Of a DNA stretch of 64,000 nucleotides, positions 40,168 through 49,382 are shown piece by piece (the first letter of the stretch is position 1; each line of letters begins with the position of its first letter). The translations under genes and the position numbers were made by a program. The DNA comes from Pontibacter lucknowensis (GTDB lineage: Bacteria; Bacteroidota; Bacteroidia; Cytophagales; Hymenobacteraceae): positions 496,001 to 560,000 of the forward strand of contig NZ_FTNM01000002.1 in the NCBI RefSeq assembly GCF_900156415.1, read 5' to 3'. The notes beneath the pieces were generated by a model. It ran no database searches and had not been told where the DNA came from. It worked only from the letters and a program-made list of their open reading frames with translations.

Positions 40168-40965
40168 ATGTACATCATAAAAATTGGCGGAAATGTTTTG
40201 GATGACCCGGAGCGGTTGCAGCGTTTTTTGATTGATTTCGCTGCGCTGCTTGGTCCGAAACTACTGGTGCATGGCGGCGGCAAAATTGCCTCTACGATCG
40301 GGCTGCAGCTCGGCATAGAACCCGCTTATGTAGAGGGCCGCCGCCTGACCGACGCTGAGACACTCAAGCTGGTGACGATGGTTTATGCTGGGCTCATCAA
40401 CAAAAACGTGGTAGCGCAGCTGCAGGCTTTGGGCTGCAATGCCATCGGTATGACCGGGGCCGATGCCAATGCCATACCTGCCACCAAGCGTCCTGTTAAA
40501 ACAGTTGACTATGGTTTTGCCGGCGACATAGCAGGACCGGAGACTGTAAACGCAAATGCATTAGAAGCGCTTTTACAGGCAGGTCTTACGCCTGTGTTTG
40601 CTCCGCTCACACACGATGGCCAGGGCAGTTTGCTCAACACCAATGCCGACACCATTGCCTCTGTATTAGCTACGGCGCTGGCCCCACACTACGAGGTGAA
40701 GCTGGTATATTGCTTTGAGAAAAAGGGGGTGCTGGCTGATGCCGAAGATGATGATGCTGTTATTTCACACATCGATCAGCACAGGTATAGCAGCCTGAAG
40801 GCCGAAGGTGTGGTGAAAGACGGGATGATTCCAAAACTCGACAACGCTTTTGCTGCCTTGCAACATGGCGTCAGTGCGGTACTGATCGGGGAGGCAGAGG
40901 CTCTACCCTCACTTGCTACAGCCCAGGGATTCTCAGGCACGACTATCACCTTGAAACATGGATAA
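40168..40965 (+). CDS. argB: Acetylglutamate kinase
   Basis: This 265-aa amino-acid kinase has the N-terminal KIGGNVLDD, LLVHGGGKIAST, SLLNTNADTIASVLA and C-terminal VVKDGMIPKLDNAFAAL motifs. It phosphorylates N-acetylglutamate. Overlaps argE by 8 nt. One AGGTATAG copy falls in frame AGG-TAT-AGC (Arg-Tyr-Ser) at 40783. Confidence 0.95.
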   Translation: MYIIKIGGNVLDDPERLQRFLIDFAALLGPKLLVHGGGKIASTIGLQLGIEPAYVEGRRLTDAETLKLVTMVYAGLINKNVVAQLQALGCNAIGMTGADANAIPATKRPVKTVDYGFAGDIAGPETVNANALEALLQAGLTPVFAPLTHDGQGSLLNTNADTIASVLATALAPHYEVKLVYCFEKKGVLADAEDDDAVISHIDQHRYSSLKAEGVVKDGMIPKLDNAFAALQHGVSAVLIGEAEALPSLATAQGFSGTTITLKHG

Positions 40966-42022
40966 GAAGAACCTATACCCAGAGGCACTGGATCTGTTAC
41001 AGCAGCTGATCGCTATACCCTCTTTCAGTAGAGAAGAGGACAAAACAGCTAGTACAATTGCTGCTTTCATAGAGTCAAGAGGAGTGGAGGTGCACCGGAG
41101 GCTCAACAATATATGGGCTTTTAACAAGCATTTCGATCCGATACTGCCTACGCTGCTGCTTAATTCACACCACGATACCGTAAAGCCAAACACTGGTTAT
41201 ACCCGCGATCCGTTTGCAGCTACTGTAGAAGATGGGAAACTGTACGGGCTGGGAAGTAATGATGCCGGTGGCTGCCTTGTGTCGTTATTGGCGACTTTTC
41301 TATACTTCTATGAGCAGGAAGGGCTTCGATATAACCTGGTGTATGCCGCTACTGCTGAGGAAGAAGTTTCTGGCCGGAATGGGCTGGAACTGGTGCTGCC
41401 GGAGCTCGGTGAGTTGGAGGCAGCTATTGTCGGGGAACCAACGCTGATGCAGTTGGCTGTGGCTGAAAAAGGGTTGCTGGTGCTGGACTGCGTGGCTATC
41501 GGTCGCTCCGGCCATGCTGCCCGTGAAGAAGGTCTGAACGCCATCTATGAAGCACTGCCGGATATCACCTGGTTCCAGACCTATCGTTTCCCGAAAGTGT
41601 TGGAGCATCTGGGGCCGGTGAAAATGTCTGTGACGATGCTAGAGGCGGGCACACAGCATAACGTGGTACCGGACAAGTGCAGGTTCACGGTAGACGTGCG
41701 CCTGACCGATGCCTATAGTATGGAAGAAGTGCTCGAGGTAATCCGGCAGCATGTGAAAGCTGAAGTGACGCCTCGTTCCATGCGGCTGAAGCCCTCCTCT
41801 ATACCGATGGAGCACCCGCTGGTACAAACAGGTATAGCCCTCGGGCGCAGCACCTATGGTTCACCCACCACTTCTGACCAGGCGCTACTTTCTATACCTT
41901 CACTCAAACTCGGTCCCGGCGACTCTGCCCGTTCACACATGGCGGATGAGTTCATCTACCTGGATGAAATAGAAGAGGGTATAGCGCTTTACATCAATAT
42001 ACTTGAAAAGGTAGTAAAATAA
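40958..42022 (+). CDS. argE: M20-family acetylornithine deacetylase
   Basis: This 354-aa zinc hydrolase has metal-binding LLNSHHDTVKP, the bridging Asp in YGLGSNDAGGCLVSL, catalytic Glu-Glu in ATAEEEVSG and a late His (GDSARSHMADEFIYL). It removes the acyl group late in the pathway. It could alternatively act on N-acetylcitrulline, since the carbamoyltransferase makes N-acylcitrulline. The start overlaps argB by 8 nt. Confidence 0.92.
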   Translation: MDKKNLYPEALDLLQQLIAIPSFSREEDKTASTIAAFIESRGVEVHRRLNNIWAFNKHFDPILPTLLLNSHHDTVKPNTGYTRDPFAATVEDGKLYGLGSNDAGGCLVSLLATFLYFYEQEGLRYNLVYAATAEEEVSGRNGLELVLPELGELEAAIVGEPTLMQLAVAEKGLLVLDCVAIGRSGHAAREEGLNAIYEALPDITWFQTYRFPKVLEHLGPVKMSVTMLEAGTQHNVVPDKCRFTVDVRLTDAYSMEEVLEVIRQHVKAEVTPRSMRLKPSSIPMEHPLVQTGIALGRSTYGSPTTSDQALLSIPSLKLGPGDSARSHMADEFIYLDEIEEGIALYINILEKVVK

Positions 42023-42037
42023 TTGTAAACAGGTTGC

Positions 42038-42117
42038 TGTCATTTCGACGTTAGGAGAGATCTGAATCAATTACGAACCAGACCTAATTCAGATTTCTCA
42101 TTGCATTCGAAATGACA
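42038..42117. repeat. Third palindromic intergenic element
   Basis: Outer arms TGTCATTTCGA (42038-42048) and TCGAAATGACA (42107-42117) are perfect complements; an inner 13-nt arm pair (42055-42067 and 42087-42099) has one mismatch, forming a long nested hairpin. The sequence style (TGTCATTTCGA...GAGATCTGAAT) resembles repeats I know to be common in Bacteroidota intergenic DNA. It sits between argE and argH. Confidence 0.65.
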
Positions 42118-42155
42118 TAAAGTATTCACTCAATTACTCATTCAAAAATAACCCC

Positions 42156-43487
42156 ATGAAACTCTGGCAAAAGAACACCGACGTCAAAAAAGAGATCGAG
42201 CAGTTTACCGTGGGTCGTGACCCTGAATTTGACATGCAGCTGGCTGCTTTTGATGTGCTGGGGTCTTTGGCGCACACGCGTATGCTGGAGCAGGTGGGCT
42301 TACTGGAGAAGGAAGATTTGGAACTCCTGCAGCAAGAGATGAAGGCGATCTACCACCGCATTGTGGCAGGTGATTTTGAGATTGAGCCGGGAGTGGAGGA
42401 CATTCACTCCCAGGTAGAGCTGGAGCTGACCCGCAAGCTGGGGGAAGCAGGAAAGAAGATCCACAGTGGACGTTCGCGCAATGACCAGGTACTCGTCGAT
42501 CTTAAGCTATACCTGCGCCATGAACTGCAGCAACTCGTGCAGGAAGTTAGAGCGTTGTTTGATGTGCTGCAAGATCAGAGCGAGCGGCACAAAGACAAGC
42601 TTTTGCCTGGCTATACCCACCTGCAGGTAGCCATGCCGTCTTCTTTTGGGTTGTGGTTTGGCGCCTATGCCGAGAGTCTGGTAGACGATGTGCTTTTGCT
42701 GCAGGCGGCTTACAAAGTGACTGACAAAAACCCACTGGGTTCTGCCGCCGGTTATGGTTCATCTTTTCCGCTCAACCGCCAGATGACAACTGACTTATTG
42801 GGTTTCAGCACCATGAACTACAATGTGGTGTATGCACAGATGGGCCGTGGTAAAACGGAACGTGTAGTCAGTACAGCTATTGCCTCGGTTGCCGTGACGC
42901 TGGCACGCATGGCTATGGACCTGTGTTTGTACATGAGCCAGAACTTCGCTTTTGTGCGTCTTCCGGATAACCTCACCACCGGCTCCAGCATCATGCCGCA
43001 CAAAAAGAACCCGGACGTGTTTGAGATCATGCGGGGTAAGTGCAACAAGCTGCAGGCGCTGCCCACGGAGATCTCCATGCTGCTCATCAACCTGCCCTCT
43101 GGCTATCACCGGGAGCTCCAGCTGCTCAAGGAATCACTTTTCCCAGCCATCACGGAACTGAAAGACTGCCTGCAAATGATGACCTTCATGCTGCCGCAGC
43201 TGGAGGTGCGTGACCAGATCATGGAAGAAGAGAAATACAAATACGCCTTCAGTGTCGATGCCGTAAATGCGGAAGTACTGGCAGGTATGCCTTTCCGGGA
43301 TGCGTATAAGGTGGTAGGAGAGCGAATTGAAGCAGGTACTTTTGTTGTTCCTGAAGCTGTGCGCCATAGCCACGAAGGAAGCATCGGAAATCTTTGCAAC
43401 AGCGAAATTGGCTCTCTAATGAACCAGACAATAGCCGACTTCAATTTTGAAAGAGCCAACAAAGCCATCAGTGAACTGGTAAAGTAA
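42156..43487 (+). CDS. argH: Argininosuccinate lyase
   Basis: This 443-aa fumarase/aspartase superfamily enzyme has the signature GSSIMPHKKNPDVFE and SGRSRNDQVLVDLKLYL, with TVGRDPEFDMQL at the N-terminus. It cleaves argininosuccinate to arginine and fumarate. Last gene of the arginine operon, closed by a strong terminator. Confidence 0.96.
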   Translation: MKLWQKNTDVKKEIEQFTVGRDPEFDMQLAAFDVLGSLAHTRMLEQVGLLEKEDLELLQQEMKAIYHRIVAGDFEIEPGVEDIHSQVELELTRKLGEAGKKIHSGRSRNDQVLVDLKLYLRHELQQLVQEVRALFDVLQDQSERHKDKLLPGYTHLQVAMPSSFGLWFGAYAESLVDDVLLLQAAYKVTDKNPLGSAAGYGSSFPLNRQMTTDLLGFSTMNYNVVYAQMGRGKTERVVSTAIASVAVTLARMAMDLCLYMSQNFAFVRLPDNLTTGSSIMPHKKNPDVFEIMRGKCNKLQALPTEISMLLINLPSGYHRELQLLKESLFPAITELKDCLQMMTFMLPQLEVRDQIMEEEKYKYAFSVDAVNAEVLAGMPFRDAYKVVGERIEAGTFVVPEAVRHSHEGSIGNLCNSEIGSLMNQTIADFNFERANKAISELVK

Positions 43488-43576: not shown

Positions 43577-44263
43577 CTAATTCCAGTGATAATTCTGGGG
43601 CTTGATGTTCTTCAGCTTGCGTGTAGCCTGTAGCAGTGTAGCAATCAGCAGGGCTATGAACACCGACATACCGATTACCAGGTATGAAAGTACTTTAAGC
43701 GTTTTAACCTGTCTGTCGGCCGACTGATACAGTTCTTTTCCAACTTCTCCCTGTAGCGCGATCAGCTCATGCAATGGCTCCAGTAGATGCAGAAAGGCCT
43801 GGTGTCCCTCTGTGCGGTACAGGTTTTCAGCTTTGGCCTTGTCGCCTGCACTGCTTAGCTGCAAAATACGATCCTGCACAGCCACTAGCTTTTTAAACTC
43901 TATCTTATAAGTGGCCAGACCTTCGCTCTCGCGCTCGATCAGGTATGTGCTTTCAAATTTGTCAATCAAGGACTCGATCTCTTCCGTATTTGCCAGCACC
44001 AGCTGATGGAGACTGTCCTGCTCTGATGCAGCGGTGGACAGGATGTGGTCTTCGAGTGTCAGGCGGTTCTGATAGTAGCGTTCCATCACATCCGATATAA
44101 CCAGCGAAGGCACCAGGCGGTCGTGGTATACTTCACGGAACTGATTGCTTACACGACCAATGCTGTAGCTGGCAAACCAGTTAGCCAGGATGATGATAGC
44201 AAACACTGAACCCAGCGCAAATGCTACTTTATCACGTTTTGTTATCCGATAGGCCCAGTTCAT
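43577..44263 (-). CDS. Stand-alone 4HB-MCP sensor-type membrane protein
   Basis: This 228-aa protein has two TM helices (about 14-32, FALGSVFAIIILANWFASY; about 190-212, VLSYLVIGMSVFIALLIATLL) flanking a long helical periplasmic domain, the four-helix bundle MCP N-terminal layout. There is no HAMP, kinase or methyl-accepting signalling domain after TM2, so the sensor lacks an output domain unless it acts through a partner. No partner gene is adjacent. Confidence 0.7.
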   Translation of the reverse strand: MNWAYRITKRDKVAFALGSVFAIIILANWFASYSIGRVSNQFREVYHDRLVPSLVISDVMERYYQNRLTLEDHILSTAASEQDSLHQLVLANTEEIESLIDKFESTYLIERESEGLATYKIEFKKLVAVQDRILQLSSAGDKAKAENLYRTEGHQAFLHLLEPLHELIALQGEVGKELYQSADRQVKTLKVLSYLVIGMSVFIALLIATLLQATRKLKNIKPQNYHWN

Positions 44264-44461: not shown

Positions 44462-45184
44462 GTGATACCGATCAAGATCCATACGCAACCTGATGATTCC
44501 ACTTGCGGACCTACCAGTTTGCATGCGGTTTATCGCTATTTCAAAGATCCCATCTCACTGAGCGAGGTGATCAAGGAAGTGCCCTACCTGGACGAAGGCG
44601 GAACGCTGGAGGTGCTGTTGGCTTGTCATGCCCTGGAGCGCGGCTATCGGGCCCGCATCTATACCTACAACCTTCATATCTTCGACCCCACCTGGTTTCA
44701 GCTCAGCAATGATGAGATCATTGCCAGACTGGAGGAGCAGCTGGAGTTTAAGAAAGGCACCAAGTTCAGAAGGGCCACCCTGGCCTACATTGATTTCCTG
44801 CAGCGGGGTGGTGAGTTGCGCTGTACCGACCTGACCAAGGGTCTTTTGAAAGAGTATTTTGAGCGGGACATTCCGCTGCTGACAGGGCTCAGCGCGACCT
44901 ACCTCTACCAGAGTGCCCGCGAGTTCAGCGACGAAAGCGGAAACTCCATTTACGATGATGTGCGAGGTTACCCGATGGGACACTTTGTGGTGCTTTGCGG
45001 GTTTGCAGAGGATCAGAAACACATTGTGGTGGCGGATCCTTACCAGGAGAATCCATTCTTTCAAAACAATTATTACGAGGTGAAGGCATCGCACCTGCTC
45101 AACTCCATTATGCTGGGCATGGCTACCTACGATGCCAACCTGCTGGCCATACAGCCCGCAAAATCTGAACCTATCGACGAATAA
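44462..45184 (+). CDS. C39-like (papain-fold) peptidase of amidoligase cluster
   Basis: This 240-aa protein starts with GTG at 44462. The catalytic-type Cys15 sits in HTQPDDSTCGPTSLHAVYR, His in YPMGHFVVLCGF and Asp in IVVADPYQ, the cysteine-peptidase triad of C39-like proteins; no ABC transporter is attached. First of four tightly spaced genes with an ATP-grasp ligase, a GCS2-type ligase and N-formylglutamate amidohydrolase. Role inferred: hydrolysis, transfer or trimming of a small peptide. Confidence 0.8.
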   Translation: MIPIKIHTQPDDSTCGPTSLHAVYRYFKDPISLSEVIKEVPYLDEGGTLEVLLACHALERGYRARIYTYNLHIFDPTWFQLSNDEIIARLEEQLEFKKGTKFRRATLAYIDFLQRGGELRCTDLTKGLLKEYFERDIPLLTGLSATYLYQSAREFSDESGNSIYDDVRGYPMGHFVVLCGFAEDQKHIVVADPYQENPFFQNNYYEVKASHLLNSIMLGMATYDANLLAIQPAKSEPIDE

Positions 45185-45187
45185 ATC

Positions 45188-46666
45188 ATGCGAAAAATAG
45201 TAGTTGTGGACTATCCCAAAGACTGGGATGTGGCGATTGAAGACGTGGAAGTAGTGGATGTGCAAACCTACCTGACCGATACTGCCTATACTGATATAAA
45301 AAATGCCCGTATTTTTAACCTGTGCCGCTCTTACAGATACCAGAGCGCCGGTTACTACGTATCGCTTCTGGCTGAAGCCAGGGGGCATAAACCCATCCCT
45401 AGCGTGGCCACTATGCAGGATCTCAAGAGCCCGACCATTGTGCGGGCGATTACCGTGGAGCTGAATGAACTGATCCAGAAGACGCTGGGAAGTCTGCGGT
45501 CCAAGTCCTTTACCCTGAGCATTTACTTCGGGCAGAACGTGGCCAAGAAATACGAAAAGCTCTGTAAGCATTTGCATGACCTGTTTCAGGCTCCCCTGCT
45601 GCGTGCGCAGTTTGTTTACAAAGATGAATGGGTGCTGCAGAGTATTTCGGCTATACCTATCAATGATGTACCGGAGCACCATTGGCGTTATCTGTTACGC
45701 TATGCCAAATCCTATTTCGCACGTCATCGCTTTTCGGGTGCCAAGATCGGGCGCAACAAAATCTATGACCTGGCCATTCTGGTGGACCCGGACGAAAAAG
45801 AGCCTCCCTCAAACAAAAAGGCATTGCAGCACTTTGTAGAGGCCGGTGAGGGAATGGGCTTCTATGTGGAGATGATCACCAAAGACGACTACCGTCGCCT
45901 GCCGGAGTTTGATGCCCTCTTCATCCGCGAAACAACTTCTGTCAATCACCACACTTACAAGTTTGCCCGTAAAGCCTATGCTGACGGTTTGGTGGTGATC
46001 GACGACCCGATTTCGATCCTGCGCTGTACCAACAAGGTATACTTGGCTGAGCTGCTGACCAAAGCCAAAGTGCCGATACCGAAGACGATGATCATCCACA
46101 AAGACAACCGCGAACTTGTAGAGCAGGAACTCGGTATACCCTGTGTGCTGAAGAAGCCGGACAGCTCTTTTTCGCAGGGTGTCGTAAAGGCCAAAGACAG
46201 TGCAGGTCTGCAGCGTGAGCTGGATGAAATGCTCGTTGATTCAGAGCTGATCATCGGGCAGGAGTTCACACCGACCGACTTTGACTGGCGCATCGGGATC
46301 ATGGACAAGCAGCCGCTTTATGCCTGCAAGTACTACATGGCCAAGGGGCACTGGCAGATCTACAACTGGAACGGCAAGAAGAAAAACGACACAGAGGGTG
46401 ATCACGAGACAGTGCCATTTGAAGAAGTGCCTTTTGTGGTGCTGCACACGGCCATTAAGGCAGCAAACCTGATTGGCAATGGGCTGTATGGGGTGGATAT
46501 AAAGGAAATAGACGGCAAGGCCTATGTGATTGAAGTGAATGACAACCCAAGCATTGATGCCGGCTGTGAGGATCAGATATTGAAAAAAGAACTTTATACC
46601 GCTATCCTTAAATCCATAAAGAAACGCATAGATGACAACAAGAACGTTAGAACAGATGAGTACTAA
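45188..46666 (+). CDS. RimK-like ATP-grasp ligase with RLAN domain
   Basis: This 492-aa ligase has an N-terminal RimK-like ATP-grasp N-terminal (RLAN) domain (residues about 1-160) with RSYRYQSAGYYVSLLAEARGHKP-type sequence, then an ATP-grasp domain (about 270-480) with VLKKPDSSFSQGV, GQEFTPTDFDWRIGI and metal-binding YVIEVNDNPSIDAG. ATP-grasp ligases form amide bonds via acyl phosphate. It follows the C39-like gene by 3 nt and overlaps the GCS2 gene. Substrate unknown. Confidence 0.88.
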   Translation: MRKIVVVDYPKDWDVAIEDVEVVDVQTYLTDTAYTDIKNARIFNLCRSYRYQSAGYYVSLLAEARGHKPIPSVATMQDLKSPTIVRAITVELNELIQKTLGSLRSKSFTLSIYFGQNVAKKYEKLCKHLHDLFQAPLLRAQFVYKDEWVLQSISAIPINDVPEHHWRYLLRYAKSYFARHRFSGAKIGRNKIYDLAILVDPDEKEPPSNKKALQHFVEAGEGMGFYVEMITKDDYRRLPEFDALFIRETTSVNHHTYKFARKAYADGLVVIDDPISILRCTNKVYLAELLTKAKVPIPKTMIIHKDNRELVEQELGIPCVLKKPDSSFSQGVVKAKDSAGLQRELDEMLVDSELIIGQEFTPTDFDWRIGIMDKQPLYACKYYMAKGHWQIYNWNGKKKNDTEGDHETVPFEEVPFVVLHTAIKAANLIGNGLYGVDIKEIDGKAYVIEVNDNPSIDAGCEDQILKKELYTAILKSIKKRIDDNKNVRTDEY

Positions 46667-47912
46667 AACCGCGACGCTGCACCTGTTTGAAGGCTATGGC
46701 GTGGAGATGGAATACATGATCGTGGACCGGGACACGCTGCAGGTACGGCCTATCACAGATCAATTGATCTATGATGAGGTAGGTGCCTACGTGTCGGATG
46801 TGGAGTTCGGCAAAATGGCCTGGTCCAATGAACTGGTTTTGCATGTTGTGGAGCTGAAGACGCAGACCCCTACCCATACTTTGATCGGTCTGGAAAACGA
46901 CTTTCAGGAGCATGTGAAGAAAATAAATCAGATGCTGGAGAAGCATAATGCCATGCTGTTGCCGACGGGAGCGCACCCCCTGATGAATCCCTTCGAAGAA
47001 ACTAAACTGTGGCCCCACGAGCATAATGCTGTTTACGAAGCCTACAACCGCATTTTTGACTGTCGCGGGCATGGCTGGGCCAACTTGCAGAGCACCCACC
47101 TGAACCTGCCTTTTGGCAACGACGAGGAGTTTGGAAAGCTGCATGCGGCCATCCGGATGGTGCTGCCGCTTATACCTGCCTTGGCTGCCTCTTCACCTGT
47201 GCTGGATGGAAAGCTCTCTGGTCTGCTGGACACCCGCCTGGATGTATACCGCCACAACCAGGATAAGATTCCGGCCATTGCCGGCAAGGTGGTGCCCGAG
47301 CCTGTTTTCACGCAAAAGGATTACCGGGAGCAGATCCTTAACCGGATGTATGCAGCTGTAGCACCTCACGATCCGGAGGGTGTGCTGCAGGAAGAGTTCC
47401 TGAACTCACGCGGAGCCATCGCCCGCTTCGATCGCAATGCTATCGAGATTCGCATCATTGACATACAGGAGAGTCCGGTGGCTGACCTGGCCGTGCTGCA
47501 AGCTGTGGTGGCGACCATACAGGCGCTGGTAGGGGAGCGCTGGGTAGGTATAGACAAATTGAAGCAATGGGATGAAAACCGACTGTCTGACCTCTTCCTG
47601 CAGGTGGTGCGCAGCGGACAGGAAACCGTGATCAATGACCGAGATTTCATCGACTGCTTTGGCTTCGATTGTGAAGATAATTGTACCGTGGGTGAATTGT
47701 GGAAGCATATTGTGGCCGAAACCCTCAATCTGGAAGAGCAACCCCATGTGGCCCATGCACTGAATGTGATCCTGTCGCGTGGCTGCCTTTCTAAGCGTAT
47801 TGTCGAAGCCTTGGGTGAAAATCCGGGCGAGGAGGACATTCATCGCGTATACCTGAGCCTTGCCCGCTGCCTGGGGCAGGGCGGTGTATTTATACCTGAT
47901 AAGCCATGCTGA
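46656..47912 (+). CDS. GCS2-family carboxylate-amine ligase
   Basis: This 418-aa protein belongs to the glutamate-cysteine ligase type 2 (YbdK-like) family: GYGVEMEYMIVDRDTL, NELVLHVVELKTQTP, TGAHPLMNPFEE and HLNLPFGNDEEFGKL (metal and substrate sites). It ligates the gamma-carboxyl of a glutamyl-type acid to an amine. The ATG at 46656 gives an 11-nt overlap with the ligase; an earlier ATG (46632) is possible. Not necessarily a glutathione enzyme since neighbours differ from gsh genes. Confidence 0.88.
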   Translation: MSTKTATLHLFEGYGVEMEYMIVDRDTLQVRPITDQLIYDEVGAYVSDVEFGKMAWSNELVLHVVELKTQTPTHTLIGLENDFQEHVKKINQMLEKHNAMLLPTGAHPLMNPFEETKLWPHEHNAVYEAYNRIFDCRGHGWANLQSTHLNLPFGNDEEFGKLHAAIRMVLPLIPALAASSPVLDGKLSGLLDTRLDVYRHNQDKIPAIAGKVVPEPVFTQKDYREQILNRMYAAVAPHDPEGVLQEEFLNSRGAIARFDRNAIEIRIIDIQESPVADLAVLQAVVATIQALVGERWVGIDKLKQWDENRLSDLFLQVVRSGQETVINDRDFIDCFGFDCEDNCTVGELWKHIVAETLNLEEQPHVAHALNVILSRGCLSKRIVEALGENPGEEDIHRVYLSLARCLGQGGVFIPDKPC

Positions 47913-48631
47913 GACTATTACTCACCTGCGAACACGGAGGAAACCTGATCCCATCTGCCTATGCGCCACTCTTTCATGGTCAGGAGGACGTACTCAAAAC
48001 GCACCAGGGCTACGACATCGGAGCATTGGAGCTATATCAGACCATGAAACCAATTGCTGATGTGGGATTCTACGCTGAAACAAGCAGGCTGCTGGTAGAA
48101 CTGAATCGTTCGCTGCACCATGCCAGGCTATTCTCTGAATTCACACAAGTGCTGCCGCCCGCTGAAAAGGAGCGTCTGCTTGAAAAACACTACAAGCCTT
48201 ATCGGGAACAGGTGGAGCAAATGGTTTCTGATTTTGTGTCAGCGGGACGTCGCATGCTGCATGTGGCGGTCCATACCTTCACGCCGGTGCTGGATGGGGA
48301 TGAGCGGCAGGCTGACATCGGCTTACTCTATGATCCGAAGCGAAAGCACGAGCAGGCCTACAGCAAGGAGTGGAAGGCCGCTCTGAACAAAGCCGACAAA
48401 GAACTGCTGGTCCGTTTCAACTACCCATACCTGGGCATATCCGATGGTTTCCCGACATACCTGCGTCGCAAGTTCACGGCTGATGAATATGTGGGCATTG
48501 AACTCGAAGTTAACCAGAAATTCCCGCAGCAAGGAGGTGCCCGCTGGCAGGAAATACAAGCTTTACTGGCCACCACACTGCAGGAAGTAGTGCTCCGAAA
48601 CAGGACCCTGCTATCTGAGAATGCTATTTAG
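47906..48631 (+). CDS. N-formylglutamate amidohydrolase family protein
   Basis: This 241-aa hydrolase has TCEHGGN (metal ligands near residues 8-13), HQGYDIGALELY, LVELNRSLHHARLF and VAVHTFTPVLDGDERQADIG. The family hydrolyses N-formylglutamate in histidine degradation, but no hut genes are here. As the last gene of the C39/ATP-grasp/GCS2 operon (7-nt overlap) it probably deacylates or hydrolyses an N-acyl glutamyl intermediate. Confidence 0.88.
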   Translation: MLRLLLTCEHGGNLIPSAYAPLFHGQEDVLKTHQGYDIGALELYQTMKPIADVGFYAETSRLLVELNRSLHHARLFSEFTQVLPPAEKERLLEKHYKPYREQVEQMVSDFVSAGRRMLHVAVHTFTPVLDGDERQADIGLLYDPKRKHEQAYSKEWKAALNKADKELLVRFNYPYLGISDGFPTYLRRKFTADEYVGIELEVNQKFPQQGGARWQEIQALLATTLQEVVLRNRTLLSENAI

Positions 48632-48773: not shown

Positions 48774-49382
48774 ATGAAGATCAAAAGTTTACTTAATCTG
48801 GTATTTGTTCTGGTAGCGGCGCAACTGATGTTTGCCTGTAGCTCAGCCAAGTACTACGAGTTTGCCGGCCACAAGCAGGCTCCTTATCATGACATGAAAA
48901 AGCCTGCGCCACAGCAGGAGGTAGCCCCTGAAATATCGCTGAGCGAAGTAGCCATGGCTGCAGCCGAAGAAAAGGCCACTGAGAAAGCTGTGGAGGAACC
49001 TGTACTGGAGGCTAGTGCTGCTGCTATACCTGCCGCTCCTGTTGCACCAGCTCCTAAAGTGGCTCCGATTGCCCCTGCTCCTGCAGAAGAACTGACGGTG
49101 ACAGAGGCTGAAGCGCTGGCGATGGCGAAAGAGCGTTTGGCCAACATGACCAAGGCAGAGAAGAAAGAGTTTAAGAAAGAGGTGCGCGAAGCCCTGAAGC
49201 AGGATCGCCGTGGTGGCGGTGTGAGCATCATCAAGATCATTCTGGCAGTACTGCTTCCGCCGTTGGCCGTATTCCTGCACGTAGGTCTTGGCACACAGTT
49301 CTGGATCAGCCTTATCCTGACGTTACTCTTCTGGATTCCGGGTGTGATCTACGCACTGCTCGTCGTGACAGATACCATCTAA
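48774..49382 (+). CDS. Lipoprotein with C-terminal YqaE/Pmp3 membrane domain
   Basis: This 202-aa protein has lipobox LMFACS (Cys22), a Pro/Ala/Glu-rich linker (about 55-120) and, near the C-terminus (about 140-195), the YqaE/Pmp3 signature IIKIILAVLLPPLAVFLHVG followed by LTLLFWIPGVIYALLVV. Pmp3-type proteins are small two-helix membrane stress proteins. Fusion to a lipoprotein linker is a Bacteroidota arrangement that would place the two helices far from the lipid anchor. Confidence 0.85.
   Translation: MKIKSLLNLVFVLVAAQLMFACSSAKYYEFAGHKQAPYHDMKKPAPQQEVAPEISLSEVAMAAAEEKATEKAVEEPVLEASAAAIPAAPVAPAPKVAPIAPAPAEELTVTEAEALAMAKERLANMTKAEKKEFKKEVREALKQDRRGGGVSIIKIILAVLLPPLAVFLHVGLGTQFWISLILTLLFWIPGVIYALLVVTDTI

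Follow-up and report, generated by a model that had tools for sequence, protein, structure and literature searches.

RimK, LysX, ArgX and the D-Ala-D-Ala ligases work by activating a carboxylate and coupling an amino acid, and known RimK-like enzymes often add glutamate. The text of the Pfam entry PF14401 reportedly lists GCS2 among the neighbours of the RLAN domain, and we know of no report of a small peptide made by an RLAN system. The closest described systems are reportedly those set out in 2009 by Iyer, Abhiman, Burroughs and Aravind (Mol BioSyst 5:1636), in which RLAN is said to be fused to a RimK-like ATP-grasp ligase, to lie in a GNAT-peptidase neighbourhood and to have a predicted role in peptide synthesis. 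Here we compare with these systems a cluster of four genes from Pontibacter lucknowensis, located in a stretch of 64,000 nucleotides of contig NZ_FTNM01000002.1 (the window, in which all coordinates below are counted). The genes are as follows.

44462-45184, plus strand: C39-like (papain-fold) cysteine peptidase, 240 aa, GTG start (ORF list and Pfam)
45188-46666, plus strand: RLAN domain fused to a RimK-like ATP-grasp ligase, 492 aa (ORF list and Pfam)
46632-47912, plus strand: GCS2-family carboxylate-amine ligase, 426 aa (ORF list and Pfam)
47906-48631, plus strand: N-formylglutamate amidohydrolase (FGase)-family hydrolase, 241 aa (ORF list and Pfam)

A gap of 3 nt separates the C39-like and RLAN genes, and overlaps of 35 nt (RLAN/GCS2) and 7 nt (GCS2/FGase) follow, which bears out the gene order and tight packing described in an earlier note on this DNA. 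An in-frame ATG at 46656 is a possible true start of GCS2, in which case the RLAN/GCS2 overlap would be 11 nt. The family assignments made in the same note also hold, with Pfam matches for all four proteins and structural matches for the models of both ligases. In a genome-wide search the RLAN and GCS2 families were each represented by a single gene in this genome and the FGase family by two. None of the four cluster proteins reached an NCBIfam cut-off, and scans for promoters and terminators gave matches at chance level only. The anti-phage defence models of PADLOC returned 0 matches for the four proteins, on which basis a defence role for the cluster was rejected. The genes upstream, at 40168-43487, encode an amino acid kinase, an M20 peptidase and a lyase by family (Pfam); we read them as arginine-pathway genes, and relatives of theirs are also upstream in 6 or 7 Pontibacter loci. 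The minus-strand gene at 43577-44263 encodes a four-helix-bundle sensor domain with no match to a signalling domain (Pfam) and is found near the cluster in 5 Pontibacter loci, and the gene at 48774-49379 encodes a C-terminal Pmp3 membrane domain (Pfam) behind an N-terminus that reads as lipoprotein-like.

The locus shares with the systems of Iyer et al. 2009, as these are reported, the RLAN–RimK-like fusion, a papain-like peptidase nearby and a prediction of peptide synthesis. Specifically, the RLAN match of the ligase (residues 26-166; 1.5e-48, 164.7 bits against a cut-off of 25) lies N-terminal to a match to the RimK ATP-grasp family (residues 282-458; 5.8e-11, 42.8 bits against a cut-off of 21), which places the protein in the RLAN-RimK-like ATP-grasp family. 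PF14403 was also considered as the ATP-grasp family and was rejected, the genome being without a match. The best structural matches of an AlphaFold2 model of the ligase (pLDDT 87.6) are RimK, LysX, ArgX and D-Ala-D-Ala ligases, and RimK and LysX/ArgX are likewise among the best profile matches of its ATP-grasp part; the window's ligase differs from RimK and LysX/ArgX in its added RLAN domain, in its other partners and in its scores, which lie under the NCBIfam cut-offs. Whereas the usual form of the 2009 systems reportedly has a GNAT-peptidase fusion, the window instead has GCS2, a separate peptidase gene and an added FGase-family gene. GNAT models had no match among the ten proteins encoded between 42156 and 51568, where GCS2 and the separate C39-like gene are present, and the window is not an instance of the GNAT form of these systems. 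Because an RLAN and GNAT-peptidase neighbourhood was reportedly described in 2009, the window's set is not a new kind of system. The present analysis adds the nearly exclusive exchange of GNAT and GCS2 on one core, a natural fusion of the two ligases, and the breadth of the distribution. No paper describing the four-gene set was found among the matches listed in our literature searches, and the available portions of PMC12239564, PMC2922099 and PMC10092738 do not describe it.

With respect to the GCS2 protein, its Pfam match (PF04107; 2.6e-26, 93.1 bits against a cut-off of 21) and the GCS fold of its structure model (pLDDT 93.6) place it in the GCS2 family. The best structural matches, together with the sequence family match, liken it to YbdK-family ligases (YbdK 1r8g, E 2.1e-13, and 1tt4), and the model also matches the plant glutamate-cysteine ligase 2gwc and the bifunctional glutathione synthetase 3ln6. 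It differs from the YbdK family in being placed in a four-gene operon and in its score of 53.8 bits, which is below the YbdK/glutamate-cysteine ligase subfamily cut-offs of 371 (PRK13515) and 176.4 (TIGR02050). PafA and Dop are matched as well, ranked below YbdK and the glutamate-cysteine ligases, and GCS2 has the same fold as the Pup ligase PafA. Since the model also resembles PafA and Dop, the cluster could serve to tag proteins or peptides: the RimK-like ligase would add amino acids to a C-terminus or side chain, GCS2 would add or branch the tag, the C39-like enzyme would expose the acceptor, and the amidohydrolase would remove the tag. Such a role is favoured by the activity of RimK, which attaches glutamates to a protein of the ribosome (PMC12239564). 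The closest matches of GCS2 are nonetheless small-molecule ligases, and we consider tagging rather improbable, in keeping with two further observations given below.

The combination of a GCS-fold ligase and an ATP-grasp ligase, separate or fused, is also that of glutathione synthesis, as in the bifunctional synthetase 3ln6. This pairing, along with the lack of a second GCS2 in the genome, would fit an ordinary glutathione or glutathione-analogue pathway run by divergent enzymes. We nonetheless hold this to be very unlikely, as the ATP-grasp ligase is RimK/LysX-like and scores 31.3 bits against a cut-off of 408 with the NCBIfam glutathione synthetase model, the RLAN domain, the extra peptidase and the hydrolase are foreign to glutathione synthesis, and the GNAT alternative documented below removes the gamma-glutamyl step. 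The earlier statement that the cluster is not for glutathione is thus correct at the level of families, although a GCS-type ligase paired with an ATP-grasp ligase follows the same logic as glutathione synthesis. The synthesis of N-acetylglutaminylglutamine amide (NAGGN) uses a TIGR03103-type GNAT/ATP-grasp enzyme and an asparagine synthase-like amidotransferase; for NAGGN-type enzymes there was no NCBIfam match up to E 0.1 among the six proteins scanned.

In terms of the two hydrolases, the C39-like protein matches Peptidase_C39_2 (PF13529; 1.2e-7, 32.8 bits against a cut-off of 24) and contains Q9, C15, H174 and D192, none of which varies across an alignment of 32 proteins. In this fold, Q9 would be the oxyanion Gln and C15, H174 and D192 would form the Cys-His-Asp triad, and the Pfam score and the invariance of these last three residues place the protein among the C39-like peptidases. 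Its Pfam matches up to E 0.1 were Peptidase_C39_2, Peptidase_C39 and Guanylate_cyc_2, and the phytochelatin synthase domain was not among them. The amidohydrolase-family protein matches the FGase family (2.3e-21), and the top-scoring relative of solved structure in profile comparisons is 2odf (hypothetical protein Atu2144; 3e-33), with H10, E65, H119, H123 and E199 among the columns invariant in 12/12. As to whether it is a HutG, the FGase family is matched, NCBIfam gives no match, and no hut gene is present among the ten neighbours scanned. Invariant columns are also present in the alignments of the RLAN ligase and of GCS2, and their occurrence in both ligases, the peptidase and the amidohydrolase is what active enzymes would be expected to show.

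All 15 genomes sampled from the window's genus (its own genome counted) carry the RLAN family, as do 33 of the 60 sampled from its taxonomic family. Even draws by phylum gave 35 of 296 genomes for the window's own phylum, 72 of 398 for Pseudomonadota (the phylum of Thiobacillus) and 53 of 199 for Planctomycetota (the phylum of Blastopirellula), and the family was found in 0 of 14 well-known control genomes. The nearest locus among those compared is that of Pontibacter sp. HSC-36F09, with a ligase 97% identical. Profiles of five families, all built from loci of the survey itself, the GNAT profile included, were then applied to 230 non-identical RLAN loci, made up of the three phylum draws and 77 named loci. 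The draws, which are even, supplied 34 of 34 loci for the own phylum (the window's own apart), 75 of 75 places for Pseudomonadota and 45 of 53 genomes for Planctomycetota, where one genome left out was already in the survey as L110 and seven had weak or partial matches; the 80 named loci are the top-ranking ones among at least 591 relatives and are biased towards the window's type. Four loci (L076, L108, L131 and L157) were dropped before counting, their ligase stretches being identical to others. Some stretches stop at contig ends, and absence here means that a gene was not found within the stretch examined.

GCS2 is present in 127 of the 230 loci and without exception follows the RLAN ligase on the same strand (127 of 127), with no more than 150 nt between aligned ends in 117. 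The C39-like gene is upstream in 111 of these 127 loci (not found in 16), and the FGase gene is downstream in 80. Because of this recurrent arrangement, the four-gene set is real and widespread rather than a product of chance. The FGase gene was not found beside the other 47, and the proposal in the earlier note that the product is processed by the C39-like peptidase and the amidohydrolase is not supported. Record titles of the GCS2 loci carry more than 10 phylum-level names, many of them for metagenome-assembled genomes, and include Bacteroidota, Ignavibacteriae, Planctomycetes, Verrucomicrobia, Omnitrophota, Fibrobacter, Spirochaetes, Desulfobulbaceae, Nitrospirae, proteobacteria, Uhrbacteria and others. 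RLAN, ATP-grasp and GCS2 domains are joined in one open frame of 990-1028 codons at four Planctomycetota loci (L243, L245, L246 and L247; Pfam on each), a fusion comparable to the GCS-ATP-grasp enzyme 3ln6, with a domain order that is the reverse of that in GshF. The concern that the genes might lie apart in most relatives therefore does not apply to the ligase pair of the GCS2 type, which is in order at 127 of 127 loci and fused in four genomes, but 91 of the 230 RLAN loci are without GCS2 and have GNAT in its place, so that the system comes in two forms, of which the four-gene set is one. In Legionella adelaidensis (NZ_LR134436.1), genes annotated as RimK family, glutamate-cysteine ligase family and N-formylglutamate amidohydrolase stand in a row in the window's order (locus L266). 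A plasmid search returned 11 records, 7 of them from Azospirillum, and a search for carriage by phages was without a match.

The exchange between the two forms is nearly exclusive: the profile survey of the 230 loci found GCS2 only in 125, GNAT only in 91, both in 2 and neither in 12. The own phylum contributes 23 GCS2 and 11 GNAT loci, and the 74 loci of Pseudomonadota comprise 72 with GNAT and without GCS2 and 2 with neither, the sole GCS2 locus of that phylum (L157) being identical to L116 and counted under the named loci. Planctomycetota has 37 GCS2 and 6 GNAT loci, 1 with both and 1 with neither, and the corresponding figures for the named loci are 65, 2, 1 and 9. At both loci that contain the two families, the GNAT looks unrelated to the system, being a separate gene about 1.3 kb upstream in L106 and a 36-bit fragment on the other strand in L259. 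A P. aeruginosa copy of RLAN, for which we take PA1345 as a name (not mentioned in any of the papers listed by a search for it), is found on plasmid pZYPA1927 (L265), where the ligase lies near a glutamate/aspartate transporter, ggt and pagP, and neither GNAT nor GCS2 is annotated in the 6 kb flanks.

Fifteen of the 91 GNAT loci have GNAT and the ligase as one fusion; in the remaining 76 the nearest GNAT shares the ligase's strand 47 times and lies on the other strand 29 times, so that the link in these last is one of adjacency rather than of a shared operon. For 74 of these 76, no more than 1 kb separates the GNAT domain from the ligase. The motif [RQ]xxGx[GA], presumably the acyl-CoA motif of GNAT, is present in 80 of 93 GNAT sequences. 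On a FastTree phylogeny of 208 ligases (that of the window plus those from 207 among the first 210 loci, with 20 later loci left out), the GNAT/GCS2 label changes at least 4 times, and at least 3 of these changes are forced by well-supported branches, compared with a mean of 65 for shuffled labels. The exchange thus happened several times, but only several, with 3-4 independent events, and kinship inflates the locus counts. A swap of GCS2 for a GNAT acetyltransferase is also harder to explain if the system tags proteins or peptides.

The two forms have more than the ligase in common. At 57 of the 91 GNAT loci, 53 of them among the 72 of Pseudomonadota, GNAT carries a fused C39-like DUF3335 domain, which was not found at the other 34. 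This domain is a homologue of the C39-like protein seen in the window's type (hhalign probability 96.9). With a C39-like domain in both types, the common part is the ligase plus, in most loci, a C39-like enzyme, and the exchangeable part is the enzyme that acylates an amine. Indeed, GCS2 and GNAT share the formal job of amine N-acylation, from a carboxylic acid and ATP in one case and from acyl-CoA in the other. The leading position of the C39-like gene in 111 of 127 GCS2 loci, and the fusion of its counterpart to the capping enzyme in 57 of 91 GNAT loci, would also suit a salvage or repair system, in which the C39-like enzyme acts first to cleave an already known cofactor or peptide, such as one of gamma-glutamyl or acyl type, that the ligases then rebuild. 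We regard salvage as unlikely, since 16 of 127 GCS2 loci have the ligases but no C39 gene within the stretch examined and the 40 largest neighbour clusters, viewed by eye, include no cofactor pathway common across groups.

Taken together, these observations lead us to propose, with about an even chance of being right, that the system is a cytosolic non-ribosomal pathway to a small N-capped peptide, cap-X-Y. The exchange suggests, by analogy with glutathione, that an amine is capped by a gamma-glutamyl group (GCS2) or an acyl group (GNAT) and that the carboxylate is extended by the RimK-like ligase. GCS2, using ATP, would join the gamma-carboxylate of glutamate, or of a similar acid, to the amino group of X (an amino acid or an amine), and the RLAN/RimK-like ATP-grasp ligase would activate the carboxylate of capped X and add an amino acid Y to give gamma-Glu-X-Y; in the GNAT branch, X would be capped with an acyl group from acyl-CoA to give N-acyl-X-Y. 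The order of steps, cap first and ATP-grasp second, is borrowed from glutathione, and glutamate is a candidate substrate of GCS2 by family membership. As guesses, the C39-like peptidase might trim or transpeptidate the product, much as phytochelatin synthase acts on glutathione, and the FGase-family hydrolase might take off the cap or salvage the product. The 12 of 230 loci and the P. aeruginosa copy with neither capping enzyme count against this pathway, as do the opposite-strand GNAT at 29 of 91 loci, the small number of independent exchanges and the lack of a C39 module at 16 of 127 GCS2 and 34 of 91 GNAT loci, and the exchange could also reflect different pathways built on one ligase. A product that is "gamma-glutamyl or N-acyl", as put forward in the earlier note, was a good guess in view of the GNAT/GCS2 exchange, but a concrete product and glutamate as the substrate are not supported. 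If the capped-peptide pathway is right, a large, if scattered, proportion of bacteria makes a small peptide, at the frequencies seen for RLAN in the three phylum draws, and the exchange makes a vague prediction of peptide synthesis testable, in that the same X-Y should bear a different cap. In a bolder and more tentative form, which we think somewhat improbable, the products would be small peptides of the cytosol that form a class of their own, so far undescribed, gamma-glutamyl in some bacteria and N-acyl in others, made by one conserved ligase and mostly one papain-fold enzyme acting like phytochelatin synthase; this glutathione-like family would span more than 10 phyla and was perhaps overlooked because none of the well-known control genomes carries the ligase.

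Clustering of neighbouring open reading frames (at least 100 codons, within 6 kb, 210 loci, 40 largest clusters) gave a broad PAS-domain-like cluster, variable in position, at 24 loci, followed by DUF155 (17 loci), GGDEF (16; Pfam on one member), DUF2817 (15) and a sigma-factor-like cluster (11), with the others in at most 9; clusters that appear transporter-like by eye reach at most 7 loci. No acceptor gene for a tag is apparent among these clusters, which also speaks against tagging, with the proviso that an acceptor shorter than 100 codons would escape. Of the clusters, DUF155 and DUF2817 stand out in our view. The DUF155 gene (RMND1 family; Pfam on two members) lies near RLAN at 13 loci of the GNAT type, 3 of the GCS2 type and 1 with neither. 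It is upstream of C39 in, for example, L054, L056 and L058, and directly downstream of RLAN in L169, L175, L176, L179, L184 and L185, among others, and could be a functional partner of the RLAN system. Fourteen of the 15 loci with a DUF2817 gene (L183:3246-4394 and 14 more; Pfam on one member) are of the GNAT type, and at these 15 loci DUF2817 might stand in for the FGase-family hydrolase.
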